Of a stretch of 64,000 nt of DNA, positions 4,955-58,537 are shown one piece after another. How positions within the stretch are numbered: the stretch's first letter is position 1; every line of letters begins with the position of its first letter. This stretch comes from Thiomicrorhabdus marina (GTDB taxonomy: Bacteria > Pseudomonadota > Gammaproteobacteria > Thiomicrospirales > Thiomicrospiraceae), in assembly GCF_017571465.1 (NCBI RefSeq), contig NZ_JAGETV010000003.1:1-64000 (forward strand). The letters are read 5' to 3'. Both the position numbers and the translations under genes were made by a program. The notes under the pieces were generated by a model. The model saw only the letters and a list, made by a program, of their open reading frames with translations, did not search any database and was not told the origin of the DNA.

Positions 4955-6039
<1,085 letters not shown>

Positions 6040-6117
6040 TTAGCTGATCTCTCAACCAACTTAAAATTCTTAATAATCGTTTAGCTCTCGACTGAGCAAG
6101 GCGATCATTTTAATTTG

Positions 6118-6207
6118 CTGCTAGGGCTGGCGAATTCTAGGCGGGCTGCAGGAGTGTATTGAAATACACGACTGCCAAGCCCAACACCGAAGTCGCCGCT
6201 CTAGCAG
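6118..6207 (-). repeat. Structured intergenic repeat, copy 2
   Basis: Same architecture as the copy at 4860-4936. The outer stem is CTGCTAG/CTAGCAG (6118-6124 with 6201-6207), the middle stem is AGCCC/GGGCT, and the inner stem is TGTATT/AATACA at 6155-6168. The conserved single-stranded parts include TTCGGTGTTG, CAGTCG and GCCTAGAATT, read on the minus strand. It sits six bases beyond the tkt stop codon, between tkt and gap. Confidence 0.65.
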
Positions 6208-6212
6208 ATGAA

Positions 6213-8201
6213 TTATTTACCTAGAACTTTGTTACAAGTTGCTACAACGTTCTCAACAGTGAATCCGAACATTTCAAATAGTTCGTTAGCTGGAGCAGAC
6301 TCACCGAAAGTCGTCATACCAACAACATCACCGTCTAGACCAACATACTTGTACCAGCAATCTTTAACGCCCGCTTCAACCGCTACGCGCTTAACACCAG
6401 GGATAAGAACAGAATCTTTATAGGCTTGATCTTGCTCGTCGAAAGCGTCAGTACATGGCATAGAAACAACACGTACGTTTGCATCCATTGCTTCAGCAGA
6501 CTCAACCGCTAGACCCACTTCAGAACCGGTCGCGATGATGATTAGGTCAGGCGTACCTTCGCAATCCTTAAGAACGTAACCACCTTTCTCGATGTTCGCA
6601 ACTTGCTCAGCAGTACGAGACATTGGCTCAAGCGCTTGACGAGAGAATACTAGAGCAGTCGGTGCATCACCACGCATCATAGCAATTTTCCAAGACACAG
6701 CTGATTCAACCGCGTCACAACCACGCCAAGTTTGGAAGTTAGGGATAACACGCATCGTTGCTAGCTGTTCAACTGGCTGGTGTGTAGGACCATCTTCACC
6801 TAGACCGATAGAGTCGTGAGTGTAAACATAGATCGTACCGATTTTCATCAGTGCAGACATACGTAGAGCGTTACGCATGAATTCCATGAACATGAAGAAA
6901 GTACCACCGAATACTTTGAAACCACCGTGAAGAACCATACCGTTCATCATGTGAGCCATACCGAATTCACGAACACCCCAAGATAGGTAGTTACCGTTTG
7001 CGTTTTCGCGGTTAACCTTAACCATCTTCGACCAGTTAGTCAGGTTAGAACCAGTCAAGTCAGCAGAACCACCGAACATTTCCGGAAGGATTTCACCCAG
7101 TTTTTCAATTGCTTTTTGAGACGCTTGACGAGAAGCGATTTTTGGAGACTCTTCTTGAGTCTGAGCAATGAACGCATCCATTTCAACTTCGAAGTTAGCA
7201 GGAAGATCACCCGCCATACGACGCTCGAACTCAGCTGCTTCAGCTGGGAATGCTGCTTTATAAGCTGCAAACTTGTCGTTCCAAGCCGCTTCGTCAGTCG
7301 CACCTTGTTCTTTGTGATCCCAACCAGCGTAAACATCTTCTGGAATTTCAAATGGACCAGCAGTCCAACCAAGCTCTTTACGAACTAGATCGATTTCTTC
7401 GTCACCTAGTGGCGCGCCGTGGCAAGAGTAAGTACCACACTTGTTCGGAGAACCGTAACCGATAACTGTCTTAGTACAGATCAAAGATGGCTTGTCTGTT
7501 ACTGACTTAGCTTCTTCGATTGCCGCGTTGATCGCGTCCGCATCGTGACCATCAACGTTAGGAATAACGTGCCAGTCATAAGCGTTGAAACGACCAGGAA
7601 CACCTTTTTCCATCCAGTCACCGATGTTACCGTCGATAGAGATGTCGTTGTCATCCCAGAAAGCGATCAGTTTACCTAGACCTAACGTACCCGCCATTGC
7701 ACACGCTTCGTGTGAAAGACCTTCCATCAAACAACCGTCACCCATGAACACATAAGTGTGGTGGTCTACGATTTCGTGACCAGGCTTGTTGAATTGTGCA
7801 GCAAGCGTGCGCTCAGCAATCGCCATACCTACAGCGTTAGTGATACCTTGACCTAGAGGACCAGTCGTCGTCTCGATACCTTCTGCATAACCGTATTCCG
7901 GGTGACCAGCAGTCTTAGCGTGTAGCTGACGGAACTGCTTGATGTCTTCCATGCTTAGGTCGAAACCTGTCAGGTGTAGTAGAGAGTAAATAAGCATTGA
8001 GCCGTGACCGTTAGAAAGAACGAAACGGTCGCGATCCGCCCAATTTGCATTGGTCGGGTTGTATTTCATGTGGCTGTTCCACAATACTTCAGCGATGTCC
8101 GCCATCCCCATTGGTGCACCTGGGTGACCAGAATTGGCTTTTTGAACCGCGTCCATACTTAAAGCGCGGATAGCGTTAGCTAAATCTCTACGAGTTGCCA
8201 T
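6213..8201 (-). CDS. tkt: Transketolase
   Basis: A thiamine-diphosphate enzyme that moves two-carbon units between sugar phosphates, regenerating ribulose-5-phosphate in the Calvin cycle. The 662-residue protein has the family layout. The N-terminal cofactor domain shows [12 protein letters not shown], a GDGCLMEG cofactor-binding motif near residue 155 and a [10 protein letters not shown] stretch. A pyrimidine-binding domain carries [16 protein letters not shown], and a C-terminal domain follows. GAGG lies just before the ATG. It is the first gene of the tkt-gap-pgk-pyk-fba run, with a 436-base leader upstream. Confidence 0.97.
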
Positions 8202-8572
8202 AGATTTTCCTCAATTTTTATAAAAAATTCGGTTACTGTGAAGCTGTCTTACTAGCGGTTTTTCGAGTATTTTCAGAACCTTAAGGCTCTCCACAGGGTA
8301 AATTTGGACGCATATTCTCTCTCAAATTAACGTTTGCATCAAGTTTTCTTATCTGAGCAGCCATAAAATTTATTTTTTACTACTCAGTAAATTTCATTAA
8401 AAATCAGCTATCTAGCGTATCCACGAATACAAAAACACAAGCTATTGGATTCGATTAGCAATAATTATTTAATGAAATATCGTCCAAGAAATCGGTTTTA
8501 TTCTGCCTGCTGGAAAAATCAGAGAGATGACCGCTGGATGACAAAAAGATGACAGTCGAATTAGAATCCGGC
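8202..8572 (-). promoter_or_regulatory. Leader upstream of tkt
   Basis: AT-rich non-coding sequence that should hold the promoter of the tkt-led cluster. The only distinct element I see is a palindrome, TTTACT-ACTC-AGTAAA, at 8376-8391, a possible operator. No gene is visible on either strand. Confidence 0.4.
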
Positions 8573-8637: not shown

Positions 8638-11600
8638 TTAAGACTTACTTCCTTGATGCATCTGATGATGCTGTCCCTGCATTTTCAGTAATAACTGTTC
8701 GTACAGTGAGAGCATTGATGGAATCACTAAAAGGATCAGTAAAGTCGAGAACATCAACCCAAACGCAATCGCCGTCGCCATTGGGATCAGGAACTGCGCC
8801 TGCAACGATGTCTCAAACAGTAACGGCGTCAAGCCGGCAATCGTCGTCAACGATGTTAGCAACACTGCTCGGACACGTTGTACTGCGGCTTCTTCCAAAG
8901 CTTCCTGAACTGACAAACCGGCTTCGCGTAACTGTTTATAGAAGCTGACCAAAATAATCGAGTCATTAACCACAATCCCCGAGAGACCGAAGAAACCAAA
9001 CAGTGAGAGGATTGTCATATCAATCCCCATCCACCAATGACCCATAATCGCGCCGACCAAACCGAATGGAATCGCCATCATTACCACTAAAGGCCAGCCG
9101 TAAGAACCAAACACCCACGCCAAAACAATATAAATCATCGATAGACCAATCAGTAGACCGATTTTCATATCGCCCATGGTTTCCGCTTGACGTGCATTTT
9201 GTCCTTCCAATGAATAATTGATTCCGTATTTCAACTGAAGCTCAGGCAAAGTGGTTTGCTGCAATGTTTGCAAAATCAGGTTGGCGTTATTAACCGTTTT
9301 GTCGACTTCGCCAACCACTGTCACCGCTAGCTGGCCGTCAACATGGCGCATAATGTCAAAACCGCGCTGAGTCTGCCACGAAGCAACAATACTCAAAGGC
9401 ACTCTTTCACCGGATGGCGCTACCACTTGCATCGAATTCAAACTCGCCAATGTCGCTTGCTGCTGACGAGGATATTGCAGGCGTACTTCAACCTCATCTT
9501 CCGAATCGGTGAAAATCTGTACCAAACGACCGGAAAAGGCATCTGACAACTGTCGGCCCAACGACAGATAAGTAAAGCCAAGCGCCTCGCCTTGCGGGGT
9601 CAATTGATACACCAACTGATCGCGGCCGAATGGCAAATCGTCTCGAATCGCTGACACACCGTTAATTTGATTGAGTACCTCCTGCAACTCGATCGACGCC
9701 TGCTTAAGCTTTTGCGGTTCCGCACCACTCAAGCGAATATCGACATCACTACCCGGCGGCCCCATTCTAGGCGCTTCGATGGTTAACACGTCCAATCCCG
9801 GAACTGTGCCGGCTTTCTCGTGCCAGACGCGAATAAACTCAGCATTACGGGTTTCGCGCTGATCCGGCTCTTCTAATTGAATATTAATACCGGAAAAGTT
9901 CGGACCGCTCTGGCGACTGGTTTTGTTGTAATGCACCACCGCCGTTTTCAAAATGCCCGGTTCCAATTCTTGCTCGGTTTCCAATAATGCCTGATAAAGG
10001 TGCTCAACATAACGGCTAGACACTTCCGATGGAGTACCGGCTACAAAACGCGCATCCGCTGAAAGCTTGGTCGATTCCGGCGACGGAAAAAACACAAAAC
10101 CAAGACGCCCGCCAGCTAAAAGAGCGATGACGAAGATCATCATCGCCACTGCAGAACTAATGGTGATAGAACGGTGCGCCAGACACCAACGCACTACCGA
10201 ACGGAATTGATGATGCCGAAAATGGTCAATTGCACCGTCTAGTTTATAACGCACTGATCCTTTTTCCGGCGGCTGCACCTTGTGTAATGCATGACGTAAG
10301 TGCCCCGGTAAAACCGTAAAACTTTCCAACAAAGAAGCGAAAATCACCGCAATAATCACCAATGGAATCGCAAATAGGATATTGCCCATTTCACCGCCAA
10401 TCATCATTAACGGCAAAAACGCCGCCACCGTGGTCAGTGACGATGCGGTCACCGGCCCAAGCATGCGATGCGCACCGCCTTCTGCCGCCTGCAAAGCAGG
10501 TTCACCACGCTCGTGATGAGCAAGCGCGTCCTCCCCCACAACAATGGCATCATCGACGATAATCCCCAGCGCCATAATCAAGCCGAATAGGCTGACCATA
10601 TTGATCGAACCGCCGGCCAAATAAAGAATCATCAAGGTTGCCATAAACGACACCGGAATGCCGACCGCGACCCAAAAAGCCACCCGACCGTGCATAAAGA
10701 TATACAGAATGAGCACCACCAGAATCAGACCTCCGACCCCGTTATTGACCAGCAGCATAATTCGTTGATTGACCAGCGACCAAGTTTCGTCGTAGACCTC
10801 GAATTTTACGCCTTGCGGCAATTGCGGTTCAGTTTCCAATAACCAGTTCTGCATAATCTTTGACGATTTCAAGGTATCGCCGCTTTCGGCACGTTGCAGC
10901 TGCATCTCAATAGCCGGATAGCCGCCAACCATAATGTATGGCGCGTTTTTCTGCGGTCGGCGTTCAATATTAGCAATTTCACCAAGAGTGATATTTTCAC
11001 TAGCACTATTCAGAATCGGCGTCTGCGCAAACTGCATCTCGTCGCGTTTCTGTTGCAAAGCACGCAACTCTCGCACGGAATCGTCATCGCCAACCGTACC
11101 GGCCGGATAATCGCGACTCATTGCCGACAGTTGATTACCAATGGTTTCCAGCGAAAGATTGTATTGCTCTAACTTCTGCTGAGAAACTTCTACCGCCATC
11201 TCCTCAGTCGGCAAGCCGGTGTAGTTGATTTTGTCGATACCACGGTCTAACAATTCACGCTCGAACTGCCGCACCAATGGCCGCAACTCATCCAGAGAAC
11301 CATTTTCGCTAATCACCAACAAGCGCGCTACAGGTTCATAGCGCACCACCCTTTCTATAACAGGCACCTGAATATCTTGCGGTAAATTCCGCAACTCATT
11401 GACCCGTTGGTTTATCTGGTCAATCGCTTCAATCATATTGGTGCCTTGCTTAAATTTAAGCGTCACCACCGATGAGCTTTGCGATGAAGTGGAGGTCATT
11501 TCATCCAAGTTATCGAGATTACGTAAAACTCGCTCAATCGGGTCGGTTACCGACTTTTCTACATCCTCGGCATTCGCCCCCGGCCAGACCACGCGCACCG

Positions 11601-11811
11601 ATGCATAATCCAGTTCAAAATTAGGGAAAAACTGCACATTGAGCTTCATCAGAGCAACAATCCCAGCCAGAATCATCACAATCATCAACAGGTTTGGCGC
11701 CACCTTATGACGCGCAAAAACACCAATCATCCCATGCGATTTGAAACGTTTCTGCGGAATCTCATAATCGTGATCAGGGTCAGCTATAGTAGGACTTTTA
11801 TTGTCAGCCAT
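8638..11811 (-). CDS. RND efflux permease, AcrB/HAE1-like
   Basis: A 1057-residue inner-membrane proton-driven exporter of the resistance-nodulation-division superfamily. The sequence shows the first membrane helix near residues 35-55, a large periplasmic loop, and then helices including the GIIVDDAIVVGED motif with the twin aspartates of the proton relay. A second periplasmic loop and a C-terminal bundle with LFGFFGLSGIVVNDSI follow. A 1057-residue protein of this type could export drugs, solvents or lipophilic compounds, but the substrate cannot be read from sequence. Its start overlaps the stop of the adaptor gene by one base (TAATG), so the two are co-translated. No TolC partner is adjacent; the TolC-family gene at 54.1 kb belongs to a different operon. 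Confidence 0.93.
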   Translation of the reverse strand: MADNKSPTIADPDHDYEIPQKRFKSHGMIGVFARHKVAPNLLMIVMILAGIVALMKLNVQFFPNFELDYASVRVVWPGANAEDVEKSVTDPIERVLRNLDNLDEMTSTSSQSSSVVTLKFKQGTNMIEAIDQINQRVNELRNLPQDIQVPVIERVVRYEPVARLLVISENGSLDELRPLVRQFERELLDRGIDKINYTGLPTEEMAVEVSQQKLEQYNLSLETIGNQLSAMSRDYPAGTVGDDDSVRELRALQQKRDEMQFAQTPILNSASENITLGEIANIERRPQKNAPYIMVGGYPAIEMQLQRAESGDTLKSSKIMQNWLLETEPQLPQGVKFEVYDETWSLVNQRIMLLVNNGVGGLILVVLILYIFMHGRVAFWVAVGIPVSFMATLMILYLAGGSINMVSLFGLIMALGIIVDDAIVVGEDALAHHERGEPALQAAEGGAHRMLGPVTASSLTTVAAFLPLMMIGGEMGNILFAIPLVIIAVIFASLLESFTVLPGHLRHALHKVQPPEKGSVRYKLDGAIDHFRHHQFRSVVRWCLAHRSITISSAVAMMIFVIALLAGGRLGFVFFPSPESTKLSADARFVAGTPSEVSSRYVEHLYQALLETEQELEPGILKTAVVHYNKTSRQSGPNFSGINIQLEEPDQRETRNAEFIRVWHEKAGTVPGLDVLTIEAPRMGPPGSDVDIRLSGAEPQKLKQASIELQEVLNQINGVSAIRDDLPFGRDQLVYQLTPQGEALGFTYLSLGRQLSDAFSGRLVQIFTDSEDEVEVRLQYPRQQQATLASLNSMQVVAPSGERVPLSIVASWQTQRGFDIMRHVDGQLAVTVVGEVDKTVNNANLILQTLQQTTLPELQLKYGINYSLEGQNARQAETMGDMKIGLLIGLSMIYIVLAWVFGSYGWPLVVMMAIPFGLVGAIMGHWWMGIDMTILSLFGFFGLSGIVVNDSIILVSFYKQLREAGLSVQEALEEAAVQRVRAVLLTSLTTIAGLTPLLFETSLQAQFLIPMATAIAFGLMFSTLLILLVIPSMLSLYEQLLLKMQGQHHQMHQGSKS

Positions 11812-13043
11812 TACTCCACCTCAGCCACTTTCAAACCATTGATAGCATTTGGCAGATGAGTCACGAGCACTTTCATCCCGTTTTGTAATTGCGGCGCACT
11901 CACTAGCGCCTGCAATTTACCGTTATGCATGACTTCGCCTTGTAGAGAAACCTGCATCGACTGCAAGCGCTGATCCTCAATCACATAAATCCGGTTATTG
12001 CCGTAAACCGCACTATAAGGCACAGCAGCCACTTGTGATTGCACTCGGCCTTGCAGATAAATCTCCATCAATTCACCTGGACGCTTCTGATGCAACTCAT
12101 TCGGTACGGCAAAATAAGCATCCACCCCACTGGTTGTCGCCTGACCGGCCAAGCGCTTCATTGGCATACTGACTCTTTGCGCATTATCACTGTCAATATA
12201 GGCTTGTAGCGGCTGACCATTATCCAGAGCTTGTTGTGCCTGAGGCAGCGAATTAGCAGGCAACTTCGCTTTCAGCTCCAAGCTATCCAAGCTATAAAAA
12301 CTGACCATTACCGCACCGGTATTCACTCTATCGCCAACACTAACACCCACCGAAGAAATTCGTCCGGCAAACGGCGCTTTAACCACCGCTCGCTGTTGAT
12401 TTAATTTAGCCTGCTCAAGAGCCGTCAACGCTTTTTGCAAACGAGCCTGTAGCTGCGAAAGCTGGGCATCACTCTGCTTAACCGCTAAATCAGCACCAAC
12501 CACGACATACTCTTGACGCACCAAAGCCTCTTTAGCAGTATCCACCGCCGATTGCGAGGCAAGGTTTTTCTTTAATAGCGATTTCGCTCTTTGCAAAGCT
12601 TCTTGCTTCAAACCCAAAACTTTTTGTTCATGCTCAAGTCGCTGATGATTCGCTTCAATCGTCAACTTTTGTAGTTGCAACTGTGCTCGCGCATCGGCAA
12701 CATCAGCTTGCGCCTGTTGCAATAGAATCGAAACATCTTGATTCGATAACGCCACTAACAACTGGCCTTTTTTGATCTCATCCCCCGGTAAAACGGCTAC
12801 TTTTTCGACCACTGCAGAAATCGGCGCCGCCGCCTGCACCAAAGCATTTGATTCAACTTCTCCATACAGGGTTTGTACCGCGGAAATACTCTGTAATTGC
12901 ACCGTTAGAGCATCCACCGACCAGACCTTTTCACTCACTTGAACCGGTGGCTGTTGCGGCTTGGAATTTTTCATATACACAAAAGTGCCGATCGCGAGAC
13001 CGATAATCAATACCGGCACAAGTCGTTTCAGTAGCTTACTCAT
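11811..13043 (-). CDS. RND periplasmic adaptor (membrane fusion protein)
   Basis: A 410-residue adaptor of the AcrA/MexA (HlyD_D23) type that links the RND pump to an outer-membrane channel. A membrane anchor or signal helix spans about residues 8-24. A lipoyl/biotinyl half-motif follows (AAPISAVVEKVAVLPGDEIKKGQ). Next come a long alanine/glutamine-rich coiled hairpin (about 110-210), the second lipoyl half (VKAPFAGRISSVGVSVGDRV) and beta-barrel domains. There is no obvious lipobox cysteine, so it is probably anchored by its N-terminal helix. It is the first gene of the two-gene efflux operon. Confidence 0.92.
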   Translation of the reverse strand: MSKLLKRLVPVLIIGLAIGTFVYMKNSKPQQPPVQVSEKVWSVDALTVQLQSISAVQTLYGEVESNALVQAAAPISAVVEKVAVLPGDEIKKGQLLVALSNQDVSILLQQAQADVADARAQLQLQKLTIEANHQRLEHEQKVLGLKQEALQRAKSLLKKNLASQSAVDTAKEALVRQEYVVVGADLAVKQSDAQLSQLQARLQKALTALEQAKLNQQRAVVKAPFAGRISSVGVSVGDRVNTGAVMVSFYSLDSLELKAKLPANSLPQAQQALDNGQPLQAYIDSDNAQRVSMPMKRLAGQATTSGVDAYFAVPNELHQKRPGELMEIYLQGRVQSQVAAVPYSAVYGNNRIYVIEDQRLQSMQVSLQGEVMHNGKLQALVSAPQLQNGMKVLVTHLPNAINGLKVAEVE

Positions 13044-13369
13044 AGTTGCAAAATCTGCCTTTTCTCAACCCAACAATAGGGGCATATTCTTTGTTAGTTA
13101 AATTTAATCCCGCCATTCTACCGCACTCTTTTTTCCTTACCGTGACAAACAAAGTGCAAACAATATTGAGCTTGCTTGATATACCGATTTTTTACTTGCA
13201 TCATCCATAACGCTAGTACTGCAAAAAATCTACTATTTTGAAGCTTTCTGCCAAATAAACATTGTCATTGCATCGATATTAATATAATTTATTAGGACAT
13301 AAAAACCTAAATAATAACCATTACAATCATTGGCAAAACCAAATCGTTTTAAGTCTTTAGGAGAAACAC
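13044..13369. promoter_or_regulatory. Divergent intergenic region, efflux adaptor / haem protein
   Basis: A 326-base AT-rich region between divergently read genes, with no coding potential. A weak inverted repeat (TTAGG, nine bases, CCTAA at about 13292-13310) lies upstream of the haem-protein gene and could be an operator. I see no recognisable regulator box. Confidence 0.35.
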
Positions 13370-13933
13370 ATGAAAAAGTTCATTATTGCAGGGCTACTGA
13401 GTTCATTGGCATTCAGCACACAAGCTTCCGAAATCAGTGCCGATCAGCAAGAAGCACGTAGCATTGTTAAAGAATTCGGCGGCCAACTGGTTCCTGCACT
13501 GAAAGGCGCAATGAAATCCGGTGGTCCGGTTGCGGCTATCGATGTTTGCAACACCAAAGCACCGGCAATCGCTAAAGGACTGACCGAGAAGCACGCTCCT
13601 TGGAACGTAAATCGCGTTAGCCTTAAGCCTCGCGGAGCAACGGCAACACCAGATGCTTGGGAAACCGAAACCCTAAAATGGTTCGATGAGCAGATTGCCG
13701 CAGGCGCAGACCCGAAAAAATTAGAGAAATTCGAAATTGTCAAAGTTGATGGTAAGGAAACCACTCGTTATATGAAACCGGTAATGACCGGCGGACTATG
13801 TCTAACTTGTCACGGCACAGCAAAACAAATTCCGGAAGGCGTTAAAGCCAAACTAGCAGACCTTTATCCAAACGATAAAGCCATTGACTATAGCGAAGGC
13901 CAAGTTCGCGGCGCTTTCAGCTTTCAGAAGTAA
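13370..13933 (+). CDS. Periplasmic Tll0287-like (DUF3365) haem protein
   Basis: A 187-residue exported protein. Residues 1-19 form a signal peptide ending in TQA-SE. The rest matches the Tll0287-like domain, a PAS-like fold that binds haem c: conserved IDVCNTKAP near residue 60, RVSLKPRG near 82, and a CLTCHG haem-attachment motif near residue 142. The fold occurs alone and as a sensor module in kinases and cyclases; here it is alone, so a small redox or gas-binding cytochrome is likely. AGGAG lies upstream of the ATG. The gene appears monocistronic, with a hairpin 26 bases beyond its stop. Confidence 0.85.
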   Translation: MKKFIIAGLLSSLAFSTQASEISADQQEARSIVKEFGGQLVPALKGAMKSGGPVAAIDVCNTKAPAIAKGLTEKHAPWNVNRVSLKPRGATATPDAWETETLKWFDEQIAAGADPKKLEKFEIVKVDGKETTRYMKPVMTGGLCLTCHGTAKQIPEGVKAKLADLYPNDKAIDYSEGQVRGAFSFQK

Positions 13934-34221: not shown

Positions 34222-34454
34222 AATTTTGTATTTCTTTGCGTTTGCGAAAGTTAAGTAAGGTTTAGCAGTTGCTATGCCAACACAGGACAAACCGGCTTTA
34301 TTTCTGTATCAACACGGTGCAAATCGCCCACTCTTAGTGCAAATACTTTTGTCACGCTTTTGTTACCTAAGCTTCACCGGATGTTCATTCAGCTTTTTCC
34401 GCTTGCTCTTAAGATGTTTCCTTAAAATTATTGGTTATTAAGAGTCCGAGTGTC
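34222..34454. promoter_or_regulatory. Divergent region, gpgP / btaA-like
   Basis: 233 bases between divergent genes, expected to carry both promoters. I see no clear operator or RNA element. Confidence 0.4.
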
Positions 34455-35735
34455 ATGAATAGCACCACCCTTCCAGAATCGGCCAAAAGCGCCCAAAACA
34501 CGAAAAGATTATTAAATAAGGCCGTACATAACAGTAGCATCTTCAGCCGAAAAGGCATACAAGACCGTCTGTTTACCGCCTGGTTTGACCGTCTGGTCTA
34601 TCCGCAAATCTGGGAGGACCCTGAAGTAGACATTCAAGCTCTGCAACTGAATCAAGATTCGAGAATTTTCACCATCTCTTCCGGTGGCTGTAACGTCCTG
34701 AATTATCTAACCGAGCAACCGCAATCGGTTACCGTAGTTGATCTCAACGAAGCACATATCGCACTATTGAACTTAAAACTAGCGGCACTGCACCACCTTC
34801 CAGATGCACAGAGTTTCTATCAGTTTTTCGGGCAAGCCGACCAGAAACAGAATTTGCAATTGTATAAGACCTACCTTGAACCGCATTTAGATGCCACAAC
34901 CCGAGCTTACTGGAATAAGCGACAAGGTTGGTTACGTCGTTCGCGTATCAGCCTATTCACTCGCAACTTCTATCGTTTTGGATTACTTGGGCAATTTATC
35001 GGTTTGATTCACTGGGTCAGTAAACGCTTAGGCTATGACATCAGCCAAGTCATGCAAGCGCAAACGCTTGAAGAACAGCAAAAGTTATTCGACCGGCATG
35101 TCGCACCGGTTTTCGATACCCGTCTACTAAAGTGGCTATGCAATCGTCCGGTCGTCCTGTACAGCTTGGGAATTCCGCCATCGCAATTTAACGAGATGGC
35201 CGAAGACTCTAAAGAGCTGCAACAAGGCATGCATCAACTATTAAAAGAGCGTGCTCGTCGCTTAGCTTGTGACTATCCATTAGATGAAAACTATTTTGCT
35301 TGGCAAGCTTTTGCCCGCAAGTATGACCACCAAGGCCGCAAAGCGGTGCCGCGCTATCTACAGGAAAAACATTTCAACAACTTGCAGCACAGCTGGCAGA
35401 AAGTTGATGTGCACCACCAATCGATGACAGCGCGTTTGGCGCAAATGCCAAATCAAAGCCTGACTTCTTACCTATTCTTGGATGCACAGGATTGGATGGA
35501 TGAAAAACAATTAAATGAACTATGGGAAGAAGTTGACCGTACAGCGCAAGAAGGCGCACGCGTGGTATTCCGCACCGCCGGTAGAATTTCGCCATTGGAA
35601 GGCAAGCTAAACGAAGACTTATTAGCCAATTGGAGGACCGATTCGGTTGCCAATGCGGAATGGACACGTCAAGACCGTTCAGCCATCTACGGCGCGGTAT
35701 TCGTCTATCAAAAAAATATCGGAAGCCCTGCATGA
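34455..35735 (+). CDS. btaA: BtaA-like 3-amino-3-carboxypropyl transferase (DUF3419)
   Basis: A 426-residue protein of the BtaA family, which moves the 3-amino-3-carboxypropyl group of S-adenosylmethionine onto diacylglycerol to make the head group of homoserine betaine lipids. Seen are the N-terminal YPQIWEDPEVD, the cofactor site IFTISSGGCNVLNYL near residue 75, VVDLNEAHIALLNLKLAAL near 100, and ending stretches DAQDWMDEKQL and VVFRTAGRISP. ATG at 34455 has only a weak site. It overlaps the next gene by four bases (ATGA). BtaA normally works with the N-methyltransferase BtaB, but no such gene is adjacent. Confidence 0.85.
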   Translation: MNSTTLPESAKSAQNTKRLLNKAVHNSSIFSRKGIQDRLFTAWFDRLVYPQIWEDPEVDIQALQLNQDSRIFTISSGGCNVLNYLTEQPQSVTVVDLNEAHIALLNLKLAALHHLPDAQSFYQFFGQADQKQNLQLYKTYLEPHLDATTRAYWNKRQGWLRRSRISLFTRNFYRFGLLGQFIGLIHWVSKRLGYDISQVMQAQTLEEQQKLFDRHVAPVFDTRLLKWLCNRPVVLYSLGIPPSQFNEMAEDSKELQQGMHQLLKERARRLACDYPLDENYFAWQAFARKYDHQGRKAVPRYLQEKHFNNLQHSWQKVDVHHQSMTARLAQMPNQSLTSYLFLDAQDWMDEKQLNELWEEVDRTAQEGARVVFRTAGRISPLEGKLNEDLLANWRTDSVANAEWTRQDRSAIYGAVFVYQKNIGSPA

Positions 35736-36829
35736 GTTTAAATGCACCGCCCTATCTCGCTGTATACGGTTTTGTGCAGATGTACAATCGCTTTGCACCA
35801 CGGCAAGCGATTGCTAACCTTTACACCGAAATGGAATGCTTTCATCACAATATGCATTACTACCCGCTAAGCCGAAATGAAGAAGAGTACGACAACAGTT
35901 ATATCTGTTCGTTTTACGGCGCTTACATAGACTATGCACGCGAAGAGCTGGATTTAATCCCATCGGCTTGGCAACGCTGGTTGCTACATAAAGCGTCATA
36001 CCTAGCTGGTTCATGGTTGAAAATGGCGCAGATTAACCAAAGTGTCTGTTTAAATAATTGGCTGTTTTCTACCAACCCAATGTGCGAACTGCCGAGTGAA
36101 GACTTACAAGAAATCACTCAAAAACTAGTGCACCAAAACCCGTTCTATAACTTGAGTATTCGCTCTCTAAATGAACAGCACAATGCCAAATTAATACAAA
36201 CCTTAAAACAGCAAGGCTGGTTACTTCTGCCAGCCCGTCAAGTCTATCTATTCAGTAAAGATGGAGATTGGCCGAAACGTAACAATGTCAAAAATGATTT
36301 CCGTCTACTGCGAAAAACCGAACTGACCTTGCTAAATCCGAGCGAACATAACCGAGAGCATTTCGATGAGATTGAGGCCTGCTTTAAACAGTTATTTATC
36401 GAAAAACATTCAAGCCTCAACCCGCAGTTCAGTGCGCCTTATCTGTTTGAACTGCATCGTCAGCATCTTCTGGAATTCTTCAGTTTTTGCGATGCCGACG
36501 GAAAAATTCTAGCAACGCTGGGCGTTTTCACCCACAACGGCATTATGACGGCACCGATTGTCGGCTATGACACCACGGCACCGAAAAACCTCGGCCTATA
36601 TCGCCTTGCCATTGCGCAACTGCTCAAACTAGCGCAAGAGCGAAATATGGATGTCAATTTAAGTTCCGGCGCAGCGCAGTTCAAACGCAATCGCGGCGGC
36701 ACCCCGATTATTGAATACAGCGCTATCTATTGTCGTCATCTCACCTTTAAACAGCGTTGGATGCTAGAGCAATTCAGCAGAGTGCTAAACCGCTATGCGC
36801 CACAATTCCTGCAAGATAACGCCCTTTAG
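35732..36829 (+). CDS. Acyltransferase-like protein (GNAT/FemAB-type) coupled to BtaA-like
   Basis: A 365-residue protein. Its C-terminal half looks like a GNAT- or FemAB-type acyltransferase: ILATLGVFTHNGIMTAPIVGYD near residue 255, then LGLYRLAIAQLLKLAQE and LSSGAAQFKRNRGG, ending IIEYSAIYCRHL. The N-terminal half is not recognised. The start at 35732 overlaps the stop of the btaA-like gene, so the proteins are co-translated and probably act in one pathway. I infer a modification of the amino head group or of the lipid, but the reaction is unproven. Its TAG stop coincides with the 4-base target copy (TTAG) of the following repeat element. Confidence 0.65.
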   Translation: MSLNAPPYLAVYGFVQMYNRFAPRQAIANLYTEMECFHHNMHYYPLSRNEEEYDNSYICSFYGAYIDYAREELDLIPSAWQRWLLHKASYLAGSWLKMAQINQSVCLNNWLFSTNPMCELPSEDLQEITQKLVHQNPFYNLSIRSLNEQHNAKLIQTLKQQGWLLLPARQVYLFSKDGDWPKRNNVKNDFRLLRKTELTLLNPSEHNREHFDEIEACFKQLFIEKHSSLNPQFSAPYLFELHRQHLLEFFSFCDADGKILATLGVFTHNGIMTAPIVGYDTTAPKNLGLYRLAIAQLLKLAQERNMDVNLSSGAAQFKRNRGGTPIIEYSAIYCRHLTFKQRWMLEQFSRVLNRYAPQFLQDNAL

Positions 36830-36951
36830 GGAAACACAGAACAACTCCAAATGACTTCAGGCATAGCGAAGGCTATGCTTCTCAAACGCTGCCTAGAATT
36901 TATCCCTTCAAATTCCTCGCTGAAGCCAATGGGAACTTATTCTGCGTTTCC
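36830..36951. mobile_element. Short inverted-repeat element with IS5-like ends, copy A
   Basis: A 122-base element with imperfect inverted ends of about 31 bases (GGAAACACAGAACAAC... and its complement). It is flanked by TTAG on both sides (36826-36829 and 36952-36955), which fits the YTAR target duplications of IS5-type elements. Its right 95 bases match copy B at 55645-55943 almost exactly, including CTGCCTAGAATT. It contains no gene. Confidence 0.72.
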
Positions 36952-37040
36952 TTAGACAACCTAGTATGCATTTGCGGCATTTTTGCGATATAGGCTGTTA
37001 AAATAGCGTCTTTGTTTTGACTAGACTGAACTCGATTCTC

Positions 37041-41433: not shown

Positions 41434-41604
41434 AAAAATCTCCAGAACGGTTTCACATTAATACGAATGCTTCGCATTTTACCTAAAAATAAGCAGATTA
41501 CAGCTAAAACAATAAATAAAATTTATGAAGATACAATGACTAAAGAAACACAGAGTGAGCACCCATTGACTTCAGCAGTACGTTTGGACTTGTTCTACGC
41601 TTTC

Positions 41605-55530: not shown

Positions 55531-55680
55531 ACTTTCTAAAAACGATAAACAAGAGCAGAACCCCAGCAGCTTTTATATATCTATATCTGTCGGGCCAGAT
55601 AAAACAAATACCGCACACCTTAAAATAAATCGCCCGTAGCTTAAGGAAACGCAGAACAAGTCCAAATGACTTCAGTCAAA

Positions 55681-55764
55681 GTAAAATTTAGGCTAAGCAA
55701 GGCGTCTGTTTGCCGTCAATCTAGACCTGGCAAAAACAGACAACACCGCTTAGACAAATTTTAC
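55681..55764 (-). repeat. Structured repeat, copy 3 (inside copy B)
   Basis: Outer stem GTAAAATTT/AAATTTTAC (55681-55689 with 55756-55764) continues as a longer imperfect stem; a middle stem is GTCTGTTTGCC/GGCAAAAACAGAC. The GGTGTTG loop segment reads on the minus strand. The architecture is shared with 4860-4936 and 6118-6207. Confidence 0.5.
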
Positions 55765-55819: not shown

Positions 55820-55904
55820 TTTGAAGAGTCACTTCTTTGTTAGCGTTCTCAACCATAGCTAAGGCTATGCTTCTCAAACGCTGCCTAGAATTTATCTCTT
55901 CAAA
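55820..55904 (+). repeat. Structured repeat, copy 4 (inside copy B)
   Basis: Outer stem TTTGAAGAG/CTCTTCAAA (55820-55828 with 55896-55904), middle AGCGTT/AACGCT, inner CATAGC/GCTATG. The loop parts TTCTTTGTTAG and GCCTAGAATT match copies 1 and 2. Only its second half is found again in copy A. Confidence 0.6.
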
Positions 55905-55943
55905 TTCCTCACTGAAGTCAATGGGGACTTATTCTGCGTCTCC

Positions 55944-56639
55944 CTAAGCAATCGATACGACTAGCGCCAAATAAATTTGATGCAGCCCCATCAACATTAC
56001 CGTAATTCCAGCTAAACTTTTTACCCATACGTTACGACTTAAGCGAGTAAAGAAGAAAGCAAAAGCACCAATAAGTAATAAATTGGGCAGAGTCCCCAAA
56101 CCAAAAGCCAGCATGACCAAAGCACCTTGCAAAGCACCACCCGCACTAAGTGCCAAAATCAGCATGCTATACACTAAACCACATGGCAGCCAGCCCCAAA
56201 CTAGGCCGTACAAACCCGCTTGACGGTAATTTTTAACAGTACGCATCTGTTGAGCATAGGGAGATAATTTAAGCCATAAACTACGCCCGGCTTTTTCAAT
56301 CACAACAATGCCTTGCCACCAACCGGCCAAATACAAACCTAAAGCCAACATAAATAAACCTGCCACAATTTGCAGACTCTGTTGAAAAGGTAAAACACTC
56401 GCAAGAGATTGATTAAGATACATGCCCAAAGCGCCAAATAAAGCACCTATCAACATATAACTGATAATTCGTCCAGCGTTATAAGCGAATTGAAAAGGCA
56501 GCATTCGCCACCAACTGGCTTGGTTTTTAACCTCCAAGCTAAAAGTCAACGCACCGACAACACCACCACACATTCCGAGACAATGAACGCCGCCCAGAAA
56601 CCCTGTCAGCAAAGCAGCTAAATAAATACTTTCAAACAT
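55944..56639 (-). CDS. TauE/SafE-like (DsbD_2 type) membrane protein
   Basis: A 231-residue protein of about six membrane helices with the pair of cysteine motifs GGVHCLGMCGG near residue 18 and WGWLPCGLVYS near 155. The DsbD_2-type family (PF13386) includes proteins placed beside cytochrome cbb3 maturation genes; relatives act in copper or thiol transfer. No cbb3 genes are in the window. I chose ATG at 56639; the codon before it is TTG. The gene starts five bases after comM ends, and its stop codon lies at the edge of repeat copy B. Confidence 0.85.
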   Translation of the reverse strand: MFESIYLAALLTGFLGGVHCLGMCGGVVGALTFSLEVKNQASWWRMLPFQFAYNAGRIISYMLIGALFGALGMYLNQSLASVLPFQQSLQIVAGLFMLALGLYLAGWWQGIVVIEKAGRSLWLKLSPYAQQMRTVKNYRQAGLYGLVWGWLPCGLVYSMLILALSAGGALQGALVMLAFGLGTLPNLLLIGAFAFFFTRLSRNVWVKSLAGITVMLMGLHQIYLALVVSIA

Positions 56640-58439: not shown

Positions 58440-58510
58440 TACTACTCCTAAATCACAATTTAAGGTAACTATACCCATTCAGACTCAATTAGTGAAGTAG
58501 CGAACTCTAG

Positions 58511-58537
58511 GGAAGCGCAGAACAAGTCCAAATGGCT
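58511..58537 (+). repeat. Solo end of the IS5-like inverted-repeat family
   Basis: GGAAGCGCAGAACAAGTCCA matches the left terminus of copies A and B, preceded by CTAG (YTAR). No second end is visible. It lies in the 320-base gap between ubiK and the diguanylate cyclase gene, which otherwise holds only an AT-rich promoter region. Confidence 0.55.

Follow-up and report, generated by a model that had tools for sequence, protein, structure and literature searches.

Gene order and profile searches indicate that, in the lineage of Thiomicrorhabdus marina, the methyltransferase BtaB is replaced in the btaA operon by a tandem-GNAT transferase with a FemX/MprF-like fold. Within the window, the whole stretch of 64,000 nucleotides that was analysed, the btaA homologue (DUF3419) lies at 34455-35735 on the forward strand and encodes a 426-aa predicted SAM:diacylglycerol 3-amino-3-carboxypropyltransferase, whose product would be diacylglyceryl-homoserine (DGHS). 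The tandem-GNAT gene takes btaB's place at 35732-36829 on the same strand (365 aa), an assignment based on an AlphaFold2 model and family alignments. The favoured explanation, with a probability of about 0.42, is that the two genes form a Pho-controlled lipid-remodelling operon in which the partner N-acylates DGHS. The core shared with related explanations, that the partner modifies the BtaA product, is probable, and the balance tips towards a new phosphorus-free lipid class in which a FemX/MprF-fold transferase, taking BtaB's place in the Pho regulon, attaches an acyl or aminoacyl group to the DGHS amine.

BtaA is known to transfer a group from SAM to diacylglycerol to give DGHS, to which BtaB then adds three methyl groups (PMC3972451). 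The first gene of the pair is a single-copy DUF3419 gene in a 2.83-Mb draft genome (82 contigs, 99.99% complete), and PF11899 matches its product over residues 41-420 (profile positions 7-385 of 385, E 5.4e-107). The protein shares 43% identity over 404 residues with BtaA of R. leguminosarum, where the gene 3' of DUF3419 encodes a class I methyltransferase, i.e. the btaA-btaB arrangement. DUF3419 proteins were sampled from 370 gammaproteobacterial and 397 phylum-wide genomes, and the neighbouring genes were read. In the tree of these proteins, the window BtaA and its relatives formed a seven-row clade inside a 55-row BtaA clade, the other rows of which had BtaB directly downstream without exception (48/48), and the branch joining the window family with 33 BtaB-coupled rows had a support of 100/98. 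By this placement, a non-BtaA identity of the DUF3419 protein was rejected, and the tree identifies it as a true BtaA orthologue with predicted DGHS synthesis. In its structural model (pLDDT 81), the class I SAM-dependent Rossmann fold carries a large insertion; SAM-dependent methyltransferases matched best, with Z reaching 15.4 across some 160 residues. Single-sequence and profile searches of the PDB returned no convincing sequence relatives of either BtaA or the partner, and searches of NCBIfam and PADLOC yielded nothing informative on the pair.

DUF3419 proteins of other clades were also found among other neighbours on two plasmids. The Roseinatronobacter protein belongs to a cluster (L143, 523-8507) that also encodes UbiA prenyltransferase, PEP/pyruvate-binding and AMP-binding proteins, and the very divergent one of Deefgea piscis (L144, 3995-5481) lies between the genes of an iron-containing redox enzyme and a SAM decarboxylase (speD).

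The stop of btaA and the start of the partner gene overlap in ATGA (35732-35735, +), with the partner's ATG within the btaA stop, and a Shine-Dalgarno-like GGAAG (35721-35725, +) ends six bases before that start; translational coupling of the two genes is therefore likely from this reading of the junction. The btaA and btaB genes of R. leguminosarum share the gene order and are joined by an identical 4-bp overlap. The overlap is not kept throughout the family; in other members the genes are separated by as much as a few tens of bases. A sequence-only reading of this DNA had described a DUF3419/BtaA homologue overlapping by four bases with a GNAT/FemAB-like gene, and each element of that description was borne out by the profile match and tree, the ATGA junction and the fold of the partner.

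The AlphaFold2 model of the partner, built with 58 family members, is confident (pLDDT 94) and shows a tandem GNAT over its whole length. The closest whole-length fold was FemX (Z 16.8, 269 residues, 3.6 Å), followed by the aminoacyl-tRNA-dependent peptide synthases Sbb17/Sba18 (Z 16.6) and MprF (Z 14.9, 250 residues), whereas CoA-using tandem GNATs gave shorter alignments or higher rmsd values (VipF with 200 residues at 6.1 Å, NMT with Z 12.2). The partner thus has a transferase fold, and the outcome that the earlier reading had named as fatal, a fold unrelated to acyltransferases, did not come about. FemX, Sbb17 and MprF use aminoacyl-tRNA rather than acyl-CoA as the donor; FemX extends a peptide and acts on an amine, while MprF aminoacylates phosphatidylglycerol and thus acts on a lipid head group. 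Although this fold is common to all of them, the partner shares only about 10% sequence identity with FemX and MprF, has no membrane flippase domain, and matched neither Pfam FemAB nor LPG_synthase_C at E ≤ 1, nor did its 58 relatives at 0.01. The match of the partner to PF13480 (Acetyltransf_6; E 0.0029, 18.2 bits) was under the Pfam cut-off of 22, and 25 of its 58 protein relatives matched this family at E ≤ 0.01, with a best value of 2.3e-8, so that the sequence families lean away from the aminoacyl-tRNA-dependent transferases to which the fold is closest; an open-access literature search on PF13480 returned nothing. No match to PF13444 was obtained for the partner. The residues invariant in the family alignment include R144, D189, Y290, R291, K318, R321 and E328. 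Elsewhere in the genome, a separate open frame of about 598 aa (G000:C12:33706-34014) carries an Acetyltransf_5 (PF13444) domain and is OlsF-like in size, which suggests that the organism also makes ornithine-type aminolipids.

Relatives of the partner are widespread, at least 413 being encoded in the genome collection. Of the best 80 GNAT loci, the majority of those that are not from Thiomicrorhabdus or Hydrogenovibrio sit in one conserved cluster (loci L051-L060 and L077-L140) containing KASIII, an OleD-like reductase, an AHL-lactonase-like MBL protein, a TIGR02304 adenylating enzyme related to F390 synthetase, ATP-grasp, GNAT and Rieske proteins, which ranges over Bacillota, Pseudomonadota, Planctomycetota, Verrucomicrobiota and others. 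No described product of the TIGR02304 cluster was found in the open-access literature. The gene directly before the cluster GNAT varies: it is often ATP-grasp, sometimes GT4-like, and in three rhizobial clusters (Rhizobium sp. NIBRBAC000502774, R. rhododendri and Shinella oryzae) a distant DUF3419 far from the BtaA clade in the tree. The trees of both DUF3419 and GNAT place the rhizobial pairing and the pairing of the window apart, so independent origins of the two are most likely on phylogenetic grounds. This second DUF3419 pairing is the best evidence for a GNAT working on an aminocarboxypropyl product. Since the other clusters of the family usually carry ATP-grasp or GT4 instead of DUF3419, genomic context indicates that the GNAT is not an obligate DGHS enzyme. 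In the Shewanella clusters (L088, L089 and L092, around 11500-13740), two more GNAT paralogues lie downstream of the main GNAT.

These results suggest the following route. Under phosphate limitation, PhoB would switch on the pair together with a PlcP-like phospholipase C, which would release diacylglycerol from phospholipids, and BtaA would move the 3-amino-3-carboxypropyl group of SAM onto this diacylglycerol to give DGHS. BtaB would trimethylate the DGHS amine to give DGTS; in its stead, the tandem-GNAT partner would put an acyl group on the free alpha-amine. The donor would most likely be acyl-ACP or acyl-CoA, and the predicted product N-acyl-DGHS, a three-chain, anionic, phosphorus-free lipid. 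The acceptor, the amine as the site, the acyl as the group, the donor and the product are all inferred. No description of acylated or aminoacylated DGHS, nor of betaine lipids in Thiomicrorhabdus, was found in the open-access literature.

A fatty acyl group is favoured because the other clusters of the family hold acyl-making and acyl-activating enzymes, and this version of the partner reaction is nevertheless put forward tentatively. Because of the FemX/MprF-like fold, an aminoacyl-tRNA donor is a real alternative, though an unlikely one: the partner would then add an amino acid to the DGHS amine through a peptide-type bond to form aminoacyl-DGHS. The structural comparison speaks for it, given that the whole-length fold is closest to FemX, Sbb17/Sba18 and MprF and that CoA-using tandem GNATs align less well, but the shared fold does not fix the donor, the Pfam FemAB and LPG_synthase_C families are absent from the partner and its 58 relatives, and the KASIII/F390-synthetase-like clusters in which family members lie speak for acyl chemistry. 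An F390-synthetase-like enzyme was not found in the window genome by a search that had no positive control. The proposal of the sequence-only reading, that the partner acts in the BtaA pathway by acylating the homoserine amine, therefore stands in part: BtaA is genuine, BtaB is replaced and the pairing is conserved, whereas N-acylation of that amine stays an inference with aminoacylation as a serious alternative.

A BtaB profile was built from 21 BtaB proteins, and four genomes held out of the profile served as controls, scoring 180-223 bits over the whole length. In six pair-bearing genomes including the window genome, this profile found nothing above 47 bits, which is the level of ordinary methyltransferases in the control genomes too, and a single-sequence BtaB search of the window genome gave a best score of only 24 bits. 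A btaB gene displaced elsewhere in the genome, which together with normal DGTS would have told against the sequence-only reading, was thus rejected, and the earlier observation that the canonical BtaB is missing, its operon place being taken by a GNAT/FemAB-type protein, was confirmed at the scale of the genome and set against the other clade members, all of which keep BtaB there. With BtaB absent and replaced, DGTS is therefore not expected from this route.

It is conceivable, yet unlikely, that the pathway ends at DGHS, or that DGHS is N-methylated by a non-BtaB enzyme, with the partner acting elsewhere (on another lipid, in regulation or transport, or in short-chain acetylation). Many class I methyltransferases scored at the background level of the BtaB profile, a small PEMT-family protein (G000:C23:14927-15136) gave a weak, generic match of 32 bits, and the GNAT family is common without DUF3419. 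However, BtaB is retained beside BtaA in every other sampled member of the clade, DUF3419 and GNAT were paired twice independently, and the GNAT is retained with BtaA despite its patchy presence in the genus (both genes in 20 genomes, neither in 12; p 4e-9, kinship uncorrected).

The setting of the pair within the phosphate-starvation response is new over the earlier reading. A weight matrix written for this analysis from the known Pho-box consensus was used to scan the 160 bp upstream of btaA, and a Pho-box-like site, TTGTCACGCTTTTGTTAC, was located at 34349-34366 (+), a direct repeat of 7-4-7 layout that lies some 90 bp upstream of the btaA start. Its score of 11.4 is the lowest accepted and is weak alone. 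Across the family, such sites precede btaA in 15 of 16 members, the best of them scoring 20.4; of 164 control regions taken from upstream of other genes at the same loci, 7 have one (p 9e-16), and four of these seven belong to PlcP-like or GT4 genes. A gene for a PlcP-like calcineurin-like phosphoesterase, assigned by family, context and Pho boxes, adjoins the pair on either strand at the loci of 13 relatives. In the window genome it lies away from the pair (G000:C77:4738-5601), and tandem Pho boxes separate it from a divergently oriented GT4 glycosyltransferase gene. In the lipid remodelling of marine bacteria, the known layout combines plcP with either btaA-btaB or a glycosyltransferase gene, under Pho boxes (PMC4796936). 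On the basis of these upstream sites, the pair is apparently phosphate-regulated, and BtaA orthology, the pairing, the Pho boxes and PlcP together therefore point to a phosphate-starvation lipid-remodelling module with BtaB replaced.

The same evidence weighs on the explanation that the acceptor of DUF3419 has changed from diacylglycerol, so that the product of the pair would be a non-membrane metabolite, as is probable for the KASIII-type clusters. DUF3419 proteins outside the BtaA clade occur in varied clusters, and the GNAT family is found mostly in small-molecule-like clusters, but the window protein lies inside the BtaA clade, at 43% identity to a BtaB-coupled BtaA, and the setting, with Pho boxes and PlcP nearby, is that of membrane lipid remodelling (PMC4796936), which makes this explanation improbable.

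Comparison of the pair across genomes, as the sequence-only reading had suggested, showed that its adjacency is conserved and uncovered the second pairing with a distant DUF3419. In 58 relative genomes, DUF3419 was present in 23 and the GNAT in 22, all of the latter also carrying DUF3419 (Fisher p 4e-15, kinship uncorrected). The GNAT never occurred without DUF3419 (0/58), and the single genome with DUF3419 but no GNAT (G037) has a distant DUF3419. The two genes are adjacent at all pair-bearing loci read, from Thiomicrorhabdus, Hydrogenovibrio and related MAGs. The MAG L070, labelled Synechococcaceae, carries at 5979-7184 a GNAT that shares 50% identity with the partner, has no btaA alongside and is sister to the GNAT clade of the pair, and the only DUF3419 of this MAG belongs to an ordinary BtaA-BtaB pair on another contig; L070 is possibly a mixed bin. 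A chance neighbourhood of two genes without shared function is very improbable, for although the exact overlap varies and L070 has the GNAT apart from BtaA, adjacency at every pair-bearing locus, the co-presence of the genes and the convergent pairing all stand against it.

The divergence from the glucosylglycerate genes is seen again in one close relative, and in several further relatives the pair has a glycerate-kinase gene upstream. Because the arrangement is lost at the Hydrogenovibrio loci, incidental synteny is reasonable, in keeping with the earlier view that the divergence is coincidental.

Among known systems, the BtaA-BtaB (DGTS) pathway of Rhodobacter, Sinorhizobium and Agrobacterium resembles the pair in its orthologous BtaA, apparent Pho regulation and PlcP association, and differs in having BtaB where the window has the tandem-GNAT protein. 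OlsB/OlsF and other PF13444 aminolipid N-acyltransferases would be functional analogues, working on an amino-acid-type lipid amine under phosphate stress, but they belong to another Pfam family, and the predicted acceptor of the partner is a glycerolipid with ether-linked homoserine, not a free amino acid. The GNATs of the KASIII/OleD-like/lactonase-like/TIGR02304/ATP-grasp/Rieske clusters (Paenibacillus, Ralstonia, Shewanella, Planctomycetes and others) are of the partner's own family at about 30-41% identity; the full cluster is absent from the window genome as far as tested, and most of the clusters have ATP-grasp where the window has DUF3419.

DUF3419/BtaA is commonly taken as a marker gene for betaine lipids. 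In these vent and sediment sulfur oxidisers, such a reading would probably mislead, since a Pho-controlled lipid of other charge and shape is predicted in this lineage. If correct, the proposed route would extend betaine-lipid synthesis by a new head-group branch, and a GNAT family that occurs in many bacterial phyla would have its first assigned function.

Two further features of the window were observed. Three overlapping Pho-box-like units at 8527-8566 (−), the best of which is CTGTCATCTTTTTGTCAT with a score of 20.6, lie upstream of a gene for transketolase (6213-8201, −), which is followed by gap (4966-5994, −); phosphate control of Calvin-cycle genes is possible. Directly after the partner gene, at 36827-36956, lies a nested inverted-repeat element of about 128 bp that folds far better than its shuffles (z −4.3). 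Diverged copies of it occur at 55642-55681, 55854-55946, 58508-58537 and 41540-41576 (92% over 93 bp), and the element is classed as a MITE-like dispersed repeat.
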